Translations under genes and position numbers: made by a program | Notes under the pieces: model-generated | What the model was told of the DNA's origin: nothing | The model's database searches: none | What the model saw: the letters and a program-made list of their open reading frames with translations, nothing else | In this document: positions 3,247-64,000 of the stretch, piece after piece | Layout: each line of letters begins with the position of its first letter | How positions within the stretch are numbered: the stretch's first letter is position 1 | Assembly: GCF_014645895.1 (NCBI RefSeq) | Contig: NZ_BMMP01000001.1 | Location: 527,357-591,356 of the forward strand | Reading direction: 5' to 3' | DNA length: 64,000 nucleotides | Source: Streptomyces daqingensis | Lineage (GTDB): Bacteria; Actinomycetota; Actinomycetes; Streptomycetales; Streptomycetaceae

Positions 3247-4313
3247 GCGGTGGTCAACGCGCCCCGGTGAACGTGGTGGTCTGCGGCACCCGCTTCGGGC
3301 AGGTCTACCTCTCGGCACTGGCCGGCTGCCCACAGCGGTACCGCCTCGCGGGCATCGTCGCCCGTGGCAGCGCCCGGTCCGTCGCCCTCGCCGCGGAGTA
3401 CGGCGTCCCGCTGTACCACTCCGCCGGCCAGTTGCCGGACGACGTCGACGCCGCTGTCGTGGCGGTCTCCAGCTCCGTCGGCGGCGGCCAGGGAGCCGAA
3501 CTGGCACGGTCGCTCATGGAACGCGGAGTGCACGTGCTGCAGGAACACCCGGTCCACCAGAAGGAACTGGCGGACTGCCTGCGCACCGCCCGCAGTACCG
3601 GGACGCAGTATCTGCTCGACACCTTCTACCCGCACCTGGCACCCGTGCGGCGCTTCATCGACGCCGCACGGCGGCTGACAGCGCTGCGAACCCCCGTGTT
3701 CGTCGACGCGATGTGCGCCGTCCAGGTCTCCTTCGACCTCCTGGACATCCTCGCGGAGATCTTCGGCGGACTGCGTCCCTGGTCGCTGGCCGAGCCAGCC
3801 GCAGCGACGGGCCGCCCCCTCGCCAGTGTCGACGCGACCGTAGCGGGCGTTCCGCTCACCCTTCGGGTGGAGAACCGGATGGAACCCGGCGACGACAGCT
3901 CCAGCCTCTTCCTCCACCGCATCACCGTCGGAACCGATGCGGGGAACCTGACTCTGGTCAACACCCACGGCCCGGTGGTCTGGAGCCCGGTGCTGCGCGT
4001 GGAGCAGGACGCAGACGGACGTCTCGTCACCGGCTCCGGCGACGGCGGCCCCGAGGTGCTCGGACCAGCGGAGGGGCCGTCATGGACGGAGGTGCTCGCC
4101 TCCGTGTGGCCACAGGGCGTTCTGCGCGCTCTGGACGAGCTGTGCGCTCGCATCGAGGCGGGCGGTGACCCGCTGCGCGGAGCCCAGCGGCATCTGGCGG
4201 TGGCGCGCATCTGGCAGCAACTCACGGAGACGCTCGGCTACCCCCAGGCGGCCGGCCCTCGGCCCGGCCCTCCGATCACGGCCGCCGATCTCCTTCCGGA
4301 CACCCGGCGGTGA
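3243..4313 (+). CDS. Thiazolinyl imide reductase (PchG/Irp3/YbtU family)
   Basis: About 356 aa. It reduces a thiazoline ring to thiazolidine on the NRPS-bound siderophore intermediate, using NADPH, in the cytoplasm. The N-terminus is a Rossmann fold of the Gfo/Idh/MocA type (NVVVCGTRFGQVYLSAL), and the LQEHPVHQKELADCL segment and downstream DTFYPHLAPVRRFI region are typical of this reductase family. I start it at the GTG inside the GTGA that ends the NRPS, because this gives translational coupling with its partner enzyme; a longer frame exists upstream but only overlaps the NRPS. Being directly behind the PchF-like gene supports the role. The ring it reduces in this organism cannot be read from sequence. 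Confidence 0.92.
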   Translation: MSGGQRAPVNVVVCGTRFGQVYLSALAGCPQRYRLAGIVARGSARSVALAAEYGVPLYHSAGQLPDDVDAAVVAVSSSVGGGQGAELARSLMERGVHVLQEHPVHQKELADCLRTARSTGTQYLLDTFYPHLAPVRRFIDAARRLTALRTPVFVDAMCAVQVSFDLLDILAEIFGGLRPWSLAEPAAATGRPLASVDATVAGVPLTLRVENRMEPGDDSSSLFLHRITVGTDAGNLTLVNTHGPVVWSPVLRVEQDADGRLVTGSGDGGPEVLGPAEGPSWTEVLASVWPQGVLRALDELCARIEAGGDPLRGAQRHLAVARIWQQLTETLGYPQAAGPRPGPPITAADLLPDTRR

Positions 4314-58923: not shown

Positions 58924-59335
58924 CTACATCAGGTGTGATGCGAGGGTGACGGCTGCTTGGTAGGACTCGGCGGTCTTGTCGTAGCGGGTTGCGATGCCGT
59001 GCCATTGCTTGAGGCGGTTGAAGCATCGTTCTACGACGTTGCGTTGCGTGTAGAGGTGCTTGTCGAAGGCGGGCGGGCGCCCGCCTTGGCTGCCGCGCCG
59101 GGGCCGGGTTGCGGACCTGGTCGGCCCGCTCGGGGATGGTGTGGCTGATGCCGCGGCGTCGCAGCCAGGTCCGTATCGCGCGGGAGCTGTAGCCCTTGTC
59201 GCCCAGCACGTGGGCGGGCCGTACCCGGGGTCGTCCCCGTCCGGTGCGGGGCACCCGTATCGCCTCCATCACGGCGGTGAACAGGGTGCAGTCGTTGGTG
59301 TTCCCGCCGGTGACGGTGAATGCCAGCGGGCGGCC
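58924..59335 (-). pseudogene. IS5-family transposase remnant, truncated and frameshifted
   Basis: Reading the minus strand, DDE-transposase segments appear in two frames: PAHVLGDKGYSSRAIRTWLR and RRGISHTIPERADQ in one, then PPAFDKHLYTQRNVVERC and FNRLKQWHGIATRYDKTAES in another, ending with a TAG at 58924. A frameshift therefore lies near 59080-59110. The N-terminal half is missing. The GGCGGTGTCGTCAAG stretch at about 58903 could be one terminal repeat. It is a dead insertion-sequence fragment. Confidence 0.8.
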
Positions 59336-59701
59336 GACGGCGTCAGCTCTTCCTCGCTCAGGCGTGATGCACCATCCAGATGTTCCTTCAGACGGGCGAG
59401 CAGCTGAAGACCCACCGCGTGTAAGGCCGTTTCACAGCGGGGCAGGCAGAGCCCTCGATGGGGAGGGAACTGCGCCAGCAGCCGCACGCCCGTTGCGACC
59501 GACTCCCCGGGGCCCTGACCCTCCGCCGTGCGGTGCGCCGAACGGGCCGCAGGCTGCGTGGCCGCCCCTACGGTTGGTGACCTTCGCGCCCCGATCCGAG
59601 TTCACACTCGCCGCTCCGCCCTCTCGACCGGCTGGGATGGGGCGAGGCGTTCTCTCGGATAATCGGATGTGCGTGCGGCGCGGGATTGTTAGGTTCGCCG
59701 T
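59336..59701. other. Gap between the IS remnant and the conserved unknown gene
   Basis: About 365 bp with no supported gene. The last 60 bp before 59702 must hold the promoter of the following gene. TAGGTT lies seven bases before its GTG and no ribosome site is present, so the mRNA may be leaderless. Confidence 0.4.
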
Positions 59702-60433
59702 GTGCCGAAGCTGAATCAGATCATCGCCGTCGAAAAGGGCGTCAAGTCCAAGGCCCTCCAAGAGCTCACCCAAGTCCACCAGGACGTGCAGAAGCCCGCC
59801 CTGCTGGCTGGCATCTCCAGGACTTACCAGCCCAAGGACGAGGAGGGCGAGCAGCTGCCGCCCGAGTCCACGCGGGTGCAGATCAAGGCCGAGGATGCTC
59901 TGCGGGCGACCGCCGAGACGCTGACGCGGCTCTTCGATGTGACTGCGACGAAGGACTGGGCGAACCGGTCCGCGGTCGCGGATGTGGTGATCGACGGTAC
60001 GGTGCTGTTGTCCCAGGTGCCCGTCCCGTACCTGTTGTTCCTTGAGAAGCAACTCACCGACCTGCACACCTTCGTGCGCAAGCTGCCGGTGCTCGACGCC
60101 TCCGAGTCGTGGAACTTGGACCCCTCGACGGACTCGTGGAAGACGGACCCGGTGCGGACTATCCGCACGAAGAAGGTTCCGCGCAACCACGTGAAGGCCG
60201 AGGCCACGGAGAAGCACCCGGCACAGGTCGAGGTGTACTACGAGGACGTCCCGGTCGGTTACTGGACCACGGTGAAGTTCTCCGGTGCGTTGCCCGCCCG
60301 GCGGGTCAACGAACTCCTCGATCGCGTCGAGAAGCTCCAGCAGTCCGTCAAGTTCGCCCGCGAGGAGGCGAACAACACGGAGGTGACCGACCAGCGGGTT
60401 GGCGACGCGGTATTCGGCTACCTCTTCCGGTAG
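59702..60433 (+). CDS. Conserved actinobacterial protein of unknown function
   Basis: 243 aa, GTG start, soluble, no signal peptide or TM helix. I recognise the sequence type (MPKLNQIIAVEKGVKSKALQ; ISRTYQPKDEEGEQLPPEST; KLPVLDASESWNLDP; DQRVGDAVFGYLFR) as a conserved Streptomyces family, which I believe is annotated as a DUF (DUF7873, from memory), but know no function. The body is helical and rich in charged residues, with an acidic and a basic half. It ends 13 bp before a hairpin, and the two permuted tRNAs follow within 80 bp. No other gene lies before the terminator at 60787, so protein and RNAs may form one unit. A role in binding or maturing these RNAs is speculation. Confidence 0.75.
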   Translation: MPKLNQIIAVEKGVKSKALQELTQVHQDVQKPALLAGISRTYQPKDEEGEQLPPESTRVQIKAEDALRATAETLTRLFDVTATKDWANRSAVADVVIDGTVLLSQVPVPYLLFLEKQLTDLHTFVRKLPVLDASESWNLDPSTDSWKTDPVRTIRTKKVPRNHVKAEATEKHPAQVEVYYEDVPVGYWTTVKFSGALPARRVNELLDRVEKLQQSVKFAREEANNTEVTDQRVGDAVFGYLFR

Positions 60434-60445
60434 CCCCCACATACG

Positions 60446-60466
60446 CCCTCCGCCGCGAGCGGAGGG
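60446..60466 (+). terminator. Hairpin between the unknown gene and the permuted tRNAs
   Basis: CCCTCCGC pairs perfectly with GCGGAGGG over a CGCGA loop. It could attenuate or end the mRNA, or protect the 5' end of the downstream RNA. Confidence 0.55.
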
Positions 60467-60493
60467 TGCGCGATGAGCGCAAGCTGAAACTGA

Positions 60494-60625
60494 TGTCGAA
60501 GCTGATGAAGGGGTGTCAGTTGGGGGTTCGAATCCCTCCCCCCGCGCCACGTGCGGGGGTGGCCCAATCCTGGCAGAGGCGGCCCCGTGAAACTCAGATT
60601 CTCGCTCCAGTCTCAGTATTCGCCG
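60494..60625 (+). ncRNA. Type I hammerhead-ribozyme-like core enclosing the permuted tRNA-Phe
   Basis: CTGATGA (60502-60508) stands directly before the 3' half and GTGAAAC (60587-60593) ends the 5' half, so the tRNA anticodon stem takes the place of stem II. After GAA comes a hairpin, ACTCAGATT (592-600) with AGTCTCAGT (609-617), pairing 8 of 9 and ending in GTA (cleavage expected after A618). All conserved core positions are present: CUGANGA, GAA, the A15.1-U16.1 pair and H17. Stem I is weak: G501-U619, A500-U620, bulged A499, G498-C621, C497-G622. The tRNA anticodon and A37 coincide with the GAAA core, so the two folds compete or alternate. The match may be partly chance; the second tRNA has no such core. 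Confidence 0.45.
60510..60593 (+). tRNA. Circularly permuted tRNA-Phe (GAA) candidate: 3' half precedes 5' half
   Basis: 3' half 60510-60549: anticodon 3' strand GGGGT (510-514), 7-nt variable loop, T arm GGGGG-TTCGAAT-CCCTC (522-538), acceptor 3' strand CCCCCGC (539-545), G and an encoded CCA (547-549). After three bases (CGT) the 5' half 60553-60593 follows: acceptor 5' strand GCGGGGG, TG, D stem GCC/GGC with GG in the loop, G26, anticodon 5' strand GCCCC (582-586), and loop GTGAAAC with U33, anticodon GAA and A37. Across the permutation the acceptor pairs 7 of 7 and the anticodon stem 5 of 5 (one G-U). No such pairing exists in normal order with neighbouring halves. The variable loop is two bases longer than usual. 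Standard tRNA finders would miss it. Function in translation is not shown. Confidence 0.7.
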
Positions 60626-60659
60626 CCGAACACCGGATCGACCGAGCGTGGGCGAACAT

Positions 60660-60734
60660 CGACGGATGGGGGTTCAAGTCCCTCCGGCGCCTCTCGTGGC
60701 GCTGTAGTTCAAAGGCAGAACACGTCGATCTCAA
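60660..60734 (+). tRNA. Circularly permuted tRNA-Glu (CTC) candidate: 3' half precedes 5' half
   Basis: 3' half 60660-60692: anticodon 3' strand CGACG (660-664), 3-nt variable loop, T arm GGGGG-TTCAAGT-CCCTC (668-684), acceptor 3' strand CGGCGCC (685-691), discriminator T; CCA is not encoded. After CTCGT the 5' half 60698-60734 follows: acceptor 5' strand GGCGCTG, TA, a perfect D stem GTTC/GAAC with AAAGGCA loop, A26, anticodon 5' strand CGTCG (723-727), loop ATCTCAA with U33 and anticodon CTC. Across the permutation the acceptor pairs 7 of 7 (one G-U) and the anticodon stem 5 of 5, extendable to 7 (CGTCGAT with ATCGACG). A distal helix CCCGCG/CGTGGG (740-745 with 647-652) could close a precursor around the junction. 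The short variable loop is odd. Confidence 0.65.
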
Positions 60735-60786
60735 CATGACCCGCGGTTCTTAAACGCCGCCGGTGTGCGCAATTGGGTGGCAAGCT

Positions 60787-60819
60787 GGAGCCCGGGAGCT
60801 GGACATGCTCCCGGGCTCC
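60787..60819. terminator. Strong terminator behind the permuted tRNAs
   Basis: GGAGCCCGGGAGC pairs perfectly with GCTCCCGGGCTCC (13 bp) over a 7-nt loop. It ends the unknown-gene/tRNA unit and can also serve the convergent helicase gene. Confidence 0.85.
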
Positions 60820-60882
60820 GTCACGTTCCGGGCGGGGCCGCCTACGAGTGGATTCGCCATGCCCGCTCCTCAGGTCGATCGG

Positions 60883-63573
60883 TTAGTTGAAGAGTCCGAG
60901 TTGGGCGAGTTGTTGTTGGAGTTCGGTGGGGAGTGTGGCGCGTCTGTTGCGGGTGTTGCTGCGCCATACTCCCAGGCGTACTTGGTGTTCGATGTAGCCG
61001 TTGGTGCTGTTGTCGATGAGGAGGGTTTCGCGGTGGGCGCGGGGGACGCGTACGTGTCCTTCGCGTTGGTGGTACTGGTGTAGTGCGGCGAGGTTCTTCT
61101 CCTGAGCCGAGGCCTGCGCCGATATCACCACGCTCCCGGCTGCAGCCGCCGTACACCGCTCGGCGTCGGCCGGCGGGCGTAGGCCGAGTTGGGTGAGTTT
61201 CTCCTGCTGCCTGGTACTCAACTGGTGCCAGGTGGTGGTTTGTTCGGTCAGCCAGGTGCCGATGTCTTCGCCGCCGACCCGTACGCCGGGCTGGAGTTCT
61301 TCGAGGGTGGCGCCGTCTTCGAGGCACTGTCGCACTTTGGCCCAGTGGCGTTGCCAGGGGATGGGCCAGGTGGGGTTCCAGTCCGGGTCGATTGCCTCCA
61401 GCTGGGCGCGTCGTTGAGCGGCCCGTTCCGGGTTTTTGCCGAGGCCGCCGGGTTTGCGGAAGTTGGCCAGGGCCTGACCGATCGCGACGTCGTCGATGAC
61501 CGCACCCTTCGGGGCGGCGAGGGTTCCGTGGCGGGCGTGGTAATCGCGGGCCGCGGTCAACTTCCGCCAGAACGCGATGTCGTGTACGGACCAGACCATG
61601 CCGAGTTCGTCCAGCAGCTCGCCCCGCCAGGGCCGCAGCACGCCTTCCCGCTGCTGCCTGCGCTGCTCACTGACCCAGCTTCCCAGCGCGAACGTCGACT
61701 CGCCCTCTCCTTCACCGTCATGCTCGCCCTCGCCCTCGCCCTCGCCCTCGCTTTCGTGTTCGGTGAGGTTGATGGTGGCGTGCAGCGGGACTTGGGCGTG
61801 GCCGTGTTCGGTGACCCAGCGGCGCAGGGCGTTGTATCCGGTCAGCCAGACCTCGGATTCCGGTCGCAGGACGCGGGTGCGGAGGAAGGAGGCGATGACG
61901 TCCGGATCACGGGGGCTGGAGAATCGCAGCAGCGGGACCCCGGCCTCCGCCGCACCCTCGCTGCTCGCGGATTTCGACCCTGTTGCGCCTCTCTCTTGCC
62001 CGTCTGGCTCGTTCCCGCCTGGTTCGGTGTCGTCGCGGCTGGCGGGCTGGTGGGGGTCGAGGGCGCGTACGTCGTCCGGGGTTCCGCTGCGGGTGGGGCG
62101 CGAGTGCAGGACGAGGCGCTCGATGATGGCTTCTTCGTGGCTGCGCAGGCCTTGGAGGACGGCGACGAGGGGCCGGTAGCTGGCGGAGGCGGTCATGTTC
62201 TGCGGGTTCTCGCCGGGGGCGAGGAAGATGGGCACGATGATCCGCGCGACCTTCCCCTCACCTGGATCTTGCCGCAGCGCACGCCCGATGTTCTGCACGA
62301 TGTCCACGGCCGAGCTGCGGGTGTCGGCGAAAACGACACCACCTACGCCGCGTTCGCCGCGGATGTCGACGCCTTCACCGAGCACGCGGCAGCTGGCGAG
62401 GAAGGACACCTCCGTCTTCCATCCCTCCGCATCCCACCCGTTCGCGAAACGGTCCAGCACTGCGCGCCGCTCGCCGGCGGTGTGCTGGCCGCTCAGCCAG
62501 TCCGAGCCGACCCGCTCGGGATAGGTGAGCGGGTCGGAATCATGGAGCTCGGCCGCGGTCTCCGGCAGGGTCCGCGCGAAGGCCATGGCCTCCAGGGTGC
62601 GGTGGTGGAAGGTCATCAGCGACCGCACACCCGTGGTGTCCATGTGCTTCAGCAGCGCAGCCTGCAAAGCAGCCAGACGCCGCCCCCGCACCTCCTCCAA
62701 CCCTGCCGCTCCCGCTCCCGGCGCTTCGGGGTCGCGGATCTCCAGCACGTCCACCACGAACGGCGCCAGCGTGCCCCGCTCCTGCGCCTCCATCAGCCCG
62801 TAGGTGAACACCTGAGGCCCGTACATCGCCTCATCGTCCATGGAAGCGACCACACGCCCCTGAAACCCGCCAGAAGCCCCCTCACGGACCTCTGCGACCT
62901 CCACACCGTCCTGACGACCGGAGGACGCGGGCACTTCCCACACCCGCGCCGTGGCGGTCATGTAGAGCCTGCGAGCCGCCGGAACCCGAGCGTTGTCGTG
63001 GATCGCCGCCCACGCCTTCGCCGCGTCCCCACTCGTACGGTGCGCCTCGTCCACGACGGCCAGGTCGAAGCCCTCCAGCTTCTGCCCGTAGACGCCCTGC
63101 AGGGCCCGCTCCAGCACGCCCGGGACCGGCTCACCCTCCTCAAGCGTCCGCCCGTCTTCGACCTCTTGAGGAGCCAGTGAGGCGTAGGTCGCGAACACTG
63201 TCACCGGGCCGCTCCCAGCCCACAGGGCCAGCTGTGGGGCGCTGGTGGTGGCTCGGACGCCGAGCGCCCCGAGCATGCTGTCTCCGCTCAGGGAGCACAC
63301 GGCGATCATTTTTCCGCGGTGGCCGGCGGCTTGCCAGGCTTCGACGGTCTGTGTGAGGAGGTCCAGTGTCGGTACGAGGACCAGGACGCGCCCTCCTGGC
63401 ACGAGCCTGCGGGCCGCCTCGGCAGCGATGAGGGTCTTGCCCGACCCCGGTGCGGCAATCACCGTCGCCCGCAAGCCGTCTGAGGGAACGTCACCGTGCG
63501 ACGGCAATTCCAGAGCGGAGATGATCGCGTCCAGCGCTTCCCGCTGATGCTTTCGAAGCTGAAACCTGGCCAT
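60883..63573 (-). CDS. Telomere-proximal superfamily 2 helicase with helicase-associated repeats
   Basis: About 896 aa from the ATG at 63573 (MARFQLRKHQREAL), preceded by GGAG; an ATG three codons earlier is also possible, while the frame further upstream does not look coding. Motor part about 1-480: Walker A IAAPGSGKTLIAAE, DEAH-type box VVDEAHRTSGD, motif III YMTATARVWE and motif VI VQNIGRALRQD. A low-complexity acidic linker (Ser/Gly/Glu repeats) at about 640-660. At least three helicase-associated (HA) repeats follow, with W/F-x-Y-H-x-x-H/R-G-H patterns, for example ALHQYHQREGHVRVP. HA-repeat helicases are common close to Streptomyces chromosome and plasmid ends (TtrA-like), and this gene starts about 240 bp from telomere-like palindromes. 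A role at the end of the replicon or in conjugal transfer is inferred. Confidence 0.88.
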   Translation of the reverse strand: MARFQLRKHQREALDAIISALELPSHGDVPSDGLRATVIAAPGSGKTLIAAEAARRLVPGGRVLVLVPTLDLLTQTVEAWQAAGHRGKMIAVCSLSGDSMLGALGVRATTSAPQLALWAGSGPVTVFATYASLAPQEVEDGRTLEEGEPVPGVLERALQGVYGQKLEGFDLAVVDEAHRTSGDAAKAWAAIHDNARVPAARRLYMTATARVWEVPASSGRQDGVEVAEVREGASGGFQGRVVASMDDEAMYGPQVFTYGLMEAQERGTLAPFVVDVLEIRDPEAPGAGAAGLEEVRGRRLAALQAALLKHMDTTGVRSLMTFHHRTLEAMAFARTLPETAAELHDSDPLTYPERVGSDWLSGQHTAGERRAVLDRFANGWDAEGWKTEVSFLASCRVLGEGVDIRGERGVGGVVFADTRSSAVDIVQNIGRALRQDPGEGKVARIIVPIFLAPGENPQNMTASASYRPLVAVLQGLRSHEEAIIERLVLHSRPTRSGTPDDVRALDPHQPASRDDTEPGGNEPDGQERGATGSKSASSEGAAEAGVPLLRFSSPRDPDVIASFLRTRVLRPESEVWLTGYNALRRWVTEHGHAQVPLHATINLTEHESEGEGEGEGEHDGEGEGESTFALGSWVSEQRRQQREGVLRPWRGELLDELGMVWSVHDIAFWRKLTAARDYHARHGTLAAPKGAVIDDVAIGQALANFRKPGGLGKNPERAAQRRAQLEAIDPDWNPTWPIPWQRHWAKVRQCLEDGATLEELQPGVRVGGEDIGTWLTEQTTTWHQLSTRQQEKLTQLGLRPPADAERCTAAAAGSVVISAQASAQEKNLAALHQYHQREGHVRVPRAHRETLLIDNSTNGYIEHQVRLGVWRSNTRNRRATLPTELQQQLAQLGLFN

Positions 63574-63812
63574 CTTCTCCATCGCTTTCAGTAGAATATT
63601 CCCGTGATCTGCGGCGCTGAAATTCCAGCAAGGATCGTGAGACGAAGCGTGAAAATTCTGCCGCCCGAATCTCGATGAAGTTGCGCCCAGAGCGGCCCCA
63701 TGAGAGGTGTCCCCATTTCCCAATCCGTACCCCTGATGCATCACCTCTCCGCTCGGACTCAGAGCAGAGAGCAAGTCTACCAGTCCGGCCACCATCACCG
63801 CAGCCAGCTTCA
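63574..63812. other. Spacer between terminal helicase gene and telomere palindromes
   Basis: About 240 bp; holds the helicase promoter. No gene is supported. Confidence 0.4.
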
Positions 63813-64000
63813 CCCCTTCGAGCGAAGCGAAGAAGGGGCCAGCCCCGCCGAAGGCGGAGCTGCAAGCCTGTCAGCGCGGAGCGTTGACAGGCAGTCACCC
63901 CGCTAGGGGTGACCCAAGGAATTCCGGAGGAATTCCCACACTCAAACCGCGAAGCGGTTTGAGTAACCGTCACGTAGTGACGGCGCGTCGTGTCTGCGGA
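63813..64000. repeat. Telomere-type palindrome series of a linear replicon
   Basis: Seven hairpins follow each other almost without gap: 63813-63838 (CCCCTTC/GAAGGGG); 63842-63860 (loop GAA); 63866-63892 (12-bp stem, loop GGA); 63894-63913 (GTCACCCC/GGGGTGAC, loop GCTA); 63918-63936 (GGAATTCC twice, loop GGA); 63941-63963 (CTCAAACCGC/GCGGTTTGAG, loop GAA); 63967-63983 (CCGTCAC/GTGACGG, loop GTA). Five of them have G-N-A three-base loops, which form very stable sheared G-A folds and are typical of the 3' overhang of Streptomyces telomeres. The sequence does not match the common archetypal telomere that begins CCCGCGGAGC, so it would be a non-canonical type. The real end may be at or just beyond base 64000. 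Confidence 0.78.

Follow-up and report, generated by a model that had tools for sequence, protein, structure and literature searches.

The tRNA-like domain of the Y RNA YrlA has been described as superposing on tRNA as a circular permutation (PMC11472068), and YrlA is reported to be modified by DusA and TruB and, together with Rsr, to tether PNPase (PMC8394870). A permuted order is also found in two-piece tmRNA, for whose precursors processing by RNase P and tRNase Z has been proposed. GOLLD and ROOL, in turn, are large structured phage RNAs that lie near tRNA islands and whose function is described as unknown (PMC12286853). Here we analyse a locus in Streptomyces daqingensis that an earlier note on this DNA had read as two adjacent, circularly permuted genes for tRNA-Phe(GAA) and tRNA-Glu(CTC). 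Our comparison points to a single predicted structured RNA of about 350 nt that bears both tRNA-like domains and lies immediately 3' of a gene for a DUF7873 protein.

We searched both strands of the window, that is, the whole analysed stretch of 64,000 nucleotides, using a parser of our own that looks for a T arm, an acceptor stem, a D arm and a basal stem in permuted order. Two domains stood out, which we call heads (positions are those of the window, on the plus strand unless stated otherwise). Head 1 (D1; 60510..60586) and head 2 (D2; 60660..60727) were each identified by the parser and by covariation, and they score 73.9 and 63.3 bits, respectively, with CM R1, the training set of which includes both window heads, so that these two scores are not independent. 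Head 1 runs from one strand of its basal stem through the T arm, the acceptor 3' strand, the junction GCCACGT, the acceptor 5' strand and the D arm to the other basal strand, with 5/5 pairs in the T stem, 7/7 in the acceptor, three in the D stem and 5/5 in the basal stem; the junction between the acceptor strands (60546..60552, placed by the parser) consists of N73, CCA and CGT. Head 2 has 5/5 T, 7/7 acceptor, four D and 5/5 basal pairs and the junction TCTCGT. Among the parser matches listed, the two heads have the top two scores and are the only ones in which T, acceptor and basal stems are all fully paired. ARAGORN reported neither an ordinary tRNA nor a tmRNA anywhere in the window.

These results bear out most of what had been noticed in the letters alone. 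Two sets of tRNA halves in swapped order, with acceptor and anticodon stems (the latter being our basal stems) fully paired at 7/7 and 5/5 in each, correspond to the two heads; CGT precedes both 5' halves, and the variable loops measure 7 and 3 nt, as had been stated. The halves were said to lie 3-5 bases apart, which is correct only when N73 and CCA are assigned to the 3' half, whereas the distance from the acceptor strand itself is 7 and 6 nt. That the halves do not pair in normal order also agrees with the relatives, in which an acceptor formed from the first 5' half and the second 3' half was fully paired at 2 of 126 loci.

The gene upstream of the heads (59702..60433) encodes a protein of 243 aa that matches DUF7873 (PF25283) at 402.8 bits (Pfam, E 8e-121) and is the sole DUF7873 match in the genome. 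Directly 3' of its stop codon the sequence forms a GC-rich hairpin (CCCTCCG/CGGAGGG; 60446..60466), and GC-rich hairpins were seen by eye at the same place in several of 18 relatives printed. Homologous protein clusters numbered 7645 at E ≤0.001 (7998 scored). The protein had no match in PHROGs or PADLOC, and profile comparison with the PDB gave a best E of 0.02 (entry sc-CC-5-24), with nothing convincing and no recognised RNA-binding relative. Searches of the open-licence literature by terms returned no paper on DUF7873 and no description of the RNA linked to it. On the minus strand, a helicase with helicase-associated (HA) domains and matches to ResIII and DEAD (60883-63813) is convergent with the RNA. 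A mechanically called minus-strand ORF (59432-60550) has as its start the antisense of the head 1 T arm, which reads as a GFEPP-type peptide, and is likely to be a false gene call.

The association between DUF7873 and the heads recurs far beyond this genome. We fetched 186 DUF7873 loci (some contigs were fetched twice, so the loci are not all independent) and parsed the 900 nt 3' of the gene; at least one head was present in 175 of the 186, compared with 13 of 558 dinucleotide-shuffled controls, and on this contrast we conclude that the heads are not a product of chance. Two or more heads were found at 126 of the 186. All 80 genomic loci had at least one head and 74 had at least two; the single plasmid locus had a head; and viral or phage loci had at least one head in 94 of 105 cases, at least two in 51 and none in 11. 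Counts given below for the viral group take in one plasmid locus (L115).

Within the window's genus, 41 of the 81 genomes examined carry DUF7873, and every one of the 41 has a same-strand head that lies no more than 400 nt downstream of the gene. Of the viral and phage loci, 85 were given to the CM (a subset of the 105 from which near-duplicates were partly left out), and 80 have a same-strand head downstream at E ≤1e-5. At that threshold the CM found no same-strand head downstream at L113, L131, L178 and L188, and at L192 it placed the heads on the strand opposite DUF7873. The first head found begins 434 nt downstream in L104 and 807 nt downstream in L123. In L123, from about position 3270, the head 1 junction seems to hold a coding insert: the T arm and the acceptor strand are followed by an apparent open frame. 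The matches include head pairs in cyanophage Pam2 (51.2 and 34.1 bits) and Klebsiella phage KpLz-2_45 (48.7 and 37.7 bits), and a lone weak match in Vibrio phage D505 (21 bits). In an even sample of the phylum, 6 of 296 genomes had DUF7873, each of them from the window's genus, and the family occurs in 73 phage records and 4 plasmid records. When ORFs were filtered by third-position GC, no other neighbour family was present at more than 16 of the 80 genomic loci. A loose DNA-pattern search for the RNA without DUF7873 returned one permuted head in 80 listed loci; it lies beside DUF7873, on a contig already in the set.

The earlier note had named uncompensated change at helix positions in homologous loci as evidence that would count against its reading. 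What we observed is pairing maintained through compensatory change. Across 56 head sequences of both kinds, the T helix is 99.6% paired and the acceptor 99.5%, and 11 of the 12 pairs in T and acceptor together, including 7/7 in the acceptor, change on both sides; columns of the D helix, which are less well aligned, are 68.5% paired. The covariation score was 0.661, compared with 0.180 after shuffling (0 of 500 shuffles reached 0.661) and at most 0.210 when partners were slid. Acceptor halves were also exchanged between loci in the viral group: own halves are 98.7% paired and swapped halves 62.4% for head 1 (34 distinct forms), and 98.1% and 53.2% for head 2 (37 distinct forms). Sequences for the covariation and swap tests were chosen by their pairing and the percentages therefore lean upward, so we place the weight on the slide and swap controls.

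The CM also drew attention to a class of look-alikes. It has matches in at least 80 of the 81 genomes of the window's genus, and we opened 12 of those that lie away from DUF7873: one (L219) is upstream of a TROVE gene, and the other 11 (L216-L218 and L353-L360) are pairs of tRNA-Asn genes a few bases apart that score 58.3 to 63.7 bits. Head 2 of the window, scored with the same model, thus falls just below the best tandem pair (63.3 versus 63.7 bits), and heads and tandem tRNA genes cannot be told apart by CM score alone. For permuted-tRNA scans, such tRNA-Asn pairs are a trap. We accordingly rejected the idea that every CM match in the genus is this RNA, and our argument is founded on covariation, together with the conserved core and the association with DUF7873.

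The tandem genes nevertheless bear on ancestry. Because all 11 such loci examined give 58-64 bits, a tandem tRNA array is a plausible ancestor, and permuted mimics may plausibly have arisen from tandem identical tRNA genes. That the heads themselves are nothing but junction remnants of duplicated tRNA genes in a decayed array is a different matter, and one we regard as hardly credible: the helices stay paired despite changes at nearly every position and across distant phages, and the core between and around the heads is conserved. We rejected decay on the covariation. Relatives with an ordinary array, from which the arrangement was clearly a deletion product, had been proposed as a refutation; these loci show no such derivation, although the same signature does arise from tandem tRNA-Asn genes elsewhere.

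The two heads are set in a larger predicted fold. We read its layout from the 420 nt that follow DUF7873 in 18 of the 80 relatives fetched from genomes (with record names Streptomyces, Kitasatospora, Actinacidiphila or Actinobacteria bacterium) and in viral contigs. Common to these relatives are a 5' arm of the GAGCGC-AAGCTGA type, head 1, a core that mostly spans 69-84 nt, head 2, the motif TTAAACG and, last, a terminal hairpin whose loop is of the GGATA, GGCTA or GGACA type. In the window, the 5' strand of P1 (GAGCG; 60475..60479) pairs with 60603-60607 in RNAalifold folds of 32 and of 50 aligned relatives, and that of P2 (60482-60487) pairs with 60594-60600 in the fold of 50; together the two helices surround head 1. 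The conserved core between the heads (60587..60659; comparison and RNAalifold) holds the 3' strands of P2 and P1 (60594-60607), followed by the 5' strands of P6 (60622-60627), P4 (60631-60636) and P5 (60644-60652). Beyond head 2 come the 3' strand of P5 (60740-60749), the conserved TTAAACG (60750-60756, by comparison) and the 3' strands of P4 (60760-60765) and P6 (60776-60781), the three strands being supported by RNAalifold and comparison. The terminal hairpin, with GGACA in its loop (60787..60819; sequence and comparison), forms the predicted 3' end of the RNA. Window coordinates of P1, P2 and the core strands were assigned by hand from the RNAalifold fold.

Folding of the core alone (50 sequences) placed P1 and P2 around head 1 and P6, P4 and P5 around head 2, with P6 paired in just 59-80%. 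For 32 whole RNAs, RNAalifold predicted 47 pairs, 40 of them with compensatory changes. Margins were smaller in a looser test anchored on motifs (P4, 0.85 for own strands versus 0.74 for swapped ones; P5, best-of-seven, 6.35 versus 5.62). As a separate observation, the loop of the terminal hairpin at 60787-60819 (GGACA in the window; many relatives have GGATA or GGCTA) is conserved across phages to a degree that looks above the needs of a terminator.

Are the heads, then, genes for decoding tRNAs? True circularly permuted tRNA genes would have their halves excised and rejoined in the anticodon loop, to yield tRNAs that read Phe and Glu codons. The full pairing of both heads would suit such genes, as would the CCA in place in head 1 and the presence of an RtcB ligase in the genome of the window. 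However, the would-be anticodons are not conserved: among distinct genomic forms, 20 of 56 first heads have GAA and 13 of 47 second heads have CTC, and in the viral group the commonest triplet accounts for at most 4 of 42 first heads and at most 4 of 43 second heads. The supposed anticodon stems, our basal stems, run on into the covarying helices P2 and P5. Head 1 is missing, with head 2 alone, from 6 of the 80 genomic loci (L033, L040, L042, L080, L087 and L088); in these the sequence has no T loop at the place of head 1, and three (L042, L080 and L088) have a plain hairpin there. The parser found only head 2 in a further 31 viral or phage rows, some of which, such as L159 with a hairpin in its place, are truly without head 1, whereas in others, L095 and L127 among them, head 1 is visible but was missed by the parser cut-off. 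In addition, the genome of the window has no match to the tRNA splicing endonuclease (PF01974), and head 2 has no encoded CCA in any of 55 distinct genomic forms, although CCA can be added. We consider decoding genes very improbable and rejected them on the variable anticodons, the continuing helices and the loci that do without head 1. What survives of the permuted-tRNA reading is thus the permuted tRNA-like fold, kept by compensatory change, and not the pair of tRNA-Phe(GAA) and tRNA-Glu(CTC) genes; the hedge made at the time, that these might be non-translational tRNA-like RNAs, is supported.

We also compared the junctions between acceptor strands, leaving junctions of more than 80 nt out of the counts; those counted are 4 to 74 nt long. 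CCA directly follows N73 in 26 of 55 distinct genomic and 24 of 45 distinct viral-group junctions of head 1, and in 0 of 55 and 19 of 45, respectively, of head 2. In the viral group U is the commonest base at -1 (28/45 and 34/45 for the two heads), and in the genomic loci C stands at -3 in 55/55 first and 55/55 second heads. One explanation is a cut at each acceptor junction by RNase P together with RNase Z or exonucleases, which would leave an RNA in three pieces with two CCA 3' ends, the pieces being held by the acceptor helices as in a two-piece tmRNA without the tag frame. The frequency of CCA in viral-group heads speaks for cutting, given that CCA is encoded by 7 of the 40 ordinary tRNAs in six of these loci, as do the range of junction lengths, the U at -1 and the processing proposed for permuted tmRNA precursors. 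Yet all of the genomic second heads and about half of the others have no CCA, the invariant C at -3 could mean a structured loop, and ACCA is also found at the junction of the first head of the Ro60-linked RNA in L219. On balance we regard both the cutting and the resulting three-piece RNA as unlikely, if still worth serious attention.

Some phage copies carry tRNA-related additions. Linkers between TTAAACG and the terminal hairpin were counted only at loci in which both flanking motifs were found. Of 52 distinct viral linkers, 7 hold a whole tRNA (L129, L133, L150, L159, L166, L176 and L195), and a strict anticodon-type hairpin, resembling an anticodon stem-loop with U33 and a purine at 37, is present in 7 of the other 45 (L102, L119, L138, L141, L144, L148 and L155) compared with 6 of 900 shuffles. 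Neither a tRNA nor an anticodon hairpin was found in any of the 56 genomic linkers, so these additions are not a general feature of the RNA. Several of the phage loci also sit within tRNA clusters. A match to TA(A/G/T)NNT occurs in 19 of 44 viral-group loci compared with 158 of 880 shuffles, whereas the genomic loci have it in 1 of 66; a candidate independent promoter is no more than weakly indicated.

The permuted module invites comparison with Ro60 and its Y RNAs. At E ≤1, Rfam has only two matches in positions 59000-62500, both to YrlA (RF02553), at 26.4 and 25.5 bits, which fall below the gathering score of 69 bits. The RNA upstream of TROVE in L219 has two heads by the CM (972-1043 and 1224-1293; 58.6 and 42.9 bits), with the TROVE match in a 535-aa frame 3' of them, and its first head keeps ACCA at the junction. 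It scores 32.6 bits with the YrlA model, which does not list the second head. A Ro60-linked RNA of this group thus also stays below 69 bits, and falling short of the cut-off does not by itself speak for or against kinship here; the Rfam YrlA model may miss actinobacterial Y RNAs. In at least 16 genomes a CM match precedes a TROVE match on the same strand by about 0.9-1.4 kb.

Could the RNA be a diverged member of the Ro60/Rsr system, with Ro60 supplied from elsewhere? The shared permuted module, the sub-threshold YrlA matches and the cross-detection of RNAs upstream of TROVE genes would all be expected of one. We nonetheless judge this improbable. The genome of the window has no TROVE/Ro60 match, and TROVE is likewise absent from 12 others of the 41 DUF7873-bearing genomes of the genus (13/41 in all); the linkage is to DUF7873, and two heads occupy one longer RNA. 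TROVE is found in 50 of the 81 genomes of the genus, 28 of 41 with DUF7873 and 22 of 40 without, which indicates that neither depends on the other. Deinobacterium chartae, a control genome, has both DUF7873 and TROVE above the cut-offs.

Comparison across relatives demonstrates, at the level of sequence, a shared layout, compensatory change in the helices, a tight association with DUF7873, a distribution across Streptomyces and many phages, and loci in which head 1 is missing and a plain hairpin takes its place. The explanation that we favour, and think probable, is that the two domains are heads of one predicted RNA that likely resides in a particle with DUF7873 and would hold tRNA-handling enzymes, and are not decoding tRNAs. 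The DUF7873 product is the predicted protein partner. By analogy with what YrlA does, we propose a Y-RNA-like mechanism: one non-coding RNA would be transcribed from the region downstream of DUF7873, DUF7873 would bind its core, and the heads would bind proteins that recognise the tRNA elbow and acceptor (TruB, DusA, RNase P or PNPase, for example). In phages the RNA would then likely steer or shield the tRNA pool, either by recruiting tRNA-handling enzymes or by acting as a decoy for host nucleases directed at tRNA; the tRNAs and hairpins in phage linkers and the loci in tRNA clusters favour such an involvement in the tRNA economy during infection. If this is correct, a structured RNA class is added that is firmly tied to a protein of unknown function, and its function is directly testable.

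Among known systems, permuted tRNA genes of algae and archaea likewise encode the 3' half before the 5' half, but here there is no conserved anticodon, the stems enter a larger RNA and the splicing endonuclease has no match. Two-piece tmRNA also has the acceptor 3' half encoded ahead of the 5' half; it differs from the present locus, which has two heads with varied acceptor stems and no tmRNA detected by ARAGORN in the window. GOLLD and ROOL share the proximity to tRNA islands, and GOLLD sometimes carries tRNAs in a linker (PMC12286853). The DUF7873-linked RNA is shorter, is built on two permuted heads and has a linked protein gene, and the GOLLD and ROOL models of Rfam gave no match to it (at E ≤1, and at gathering scores in 17 of a set of 18 loci on viral contigs). 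In these scans it is a structured RNA class without an Rfam 15 family of its own. Were the proposed role to hold, phage tRNA clusters would be linked with a dedicated tRNA-mimic particle, which bears on the role of ornate phage RNAs near tRNA islands.

The closest likeness is to YrlA. In both, a basal stem carries a permuted tRNA-like head made up of a T arm, an acceptor and a D arm, and the CM built from DUF7873-linked heads also detects the RNAs upstream of TROVE. YrlA, as described, has one head on one basal stem in about 90-150 nt (PMC8394870) and is encoded with Ro60/Rsr, whereas the RNA described here has two heads, a longer core and extra covarying arms, and is linked to DUF7873 in a genome without TROVE. 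The permuted tRNA-mimic module of Y RNAs would, on this account, not be bound to Ro60. More tentatively, and with slightly less than even confidence, we suggest that DUF7873 and its two-headed RNA may form a new mobile, phage-borne class of ribonucleoprotein, in which the permuted mimics, joined in some phages by the anticodon hairpin or whole tRNA, would capture the cell's tRNA machinery or decoy tRNA-cutting defences, and which would have spread from jumbo phages to Streptomyces chromosomes, a Ro60-independent parallel to Ro60 and Y RNA.
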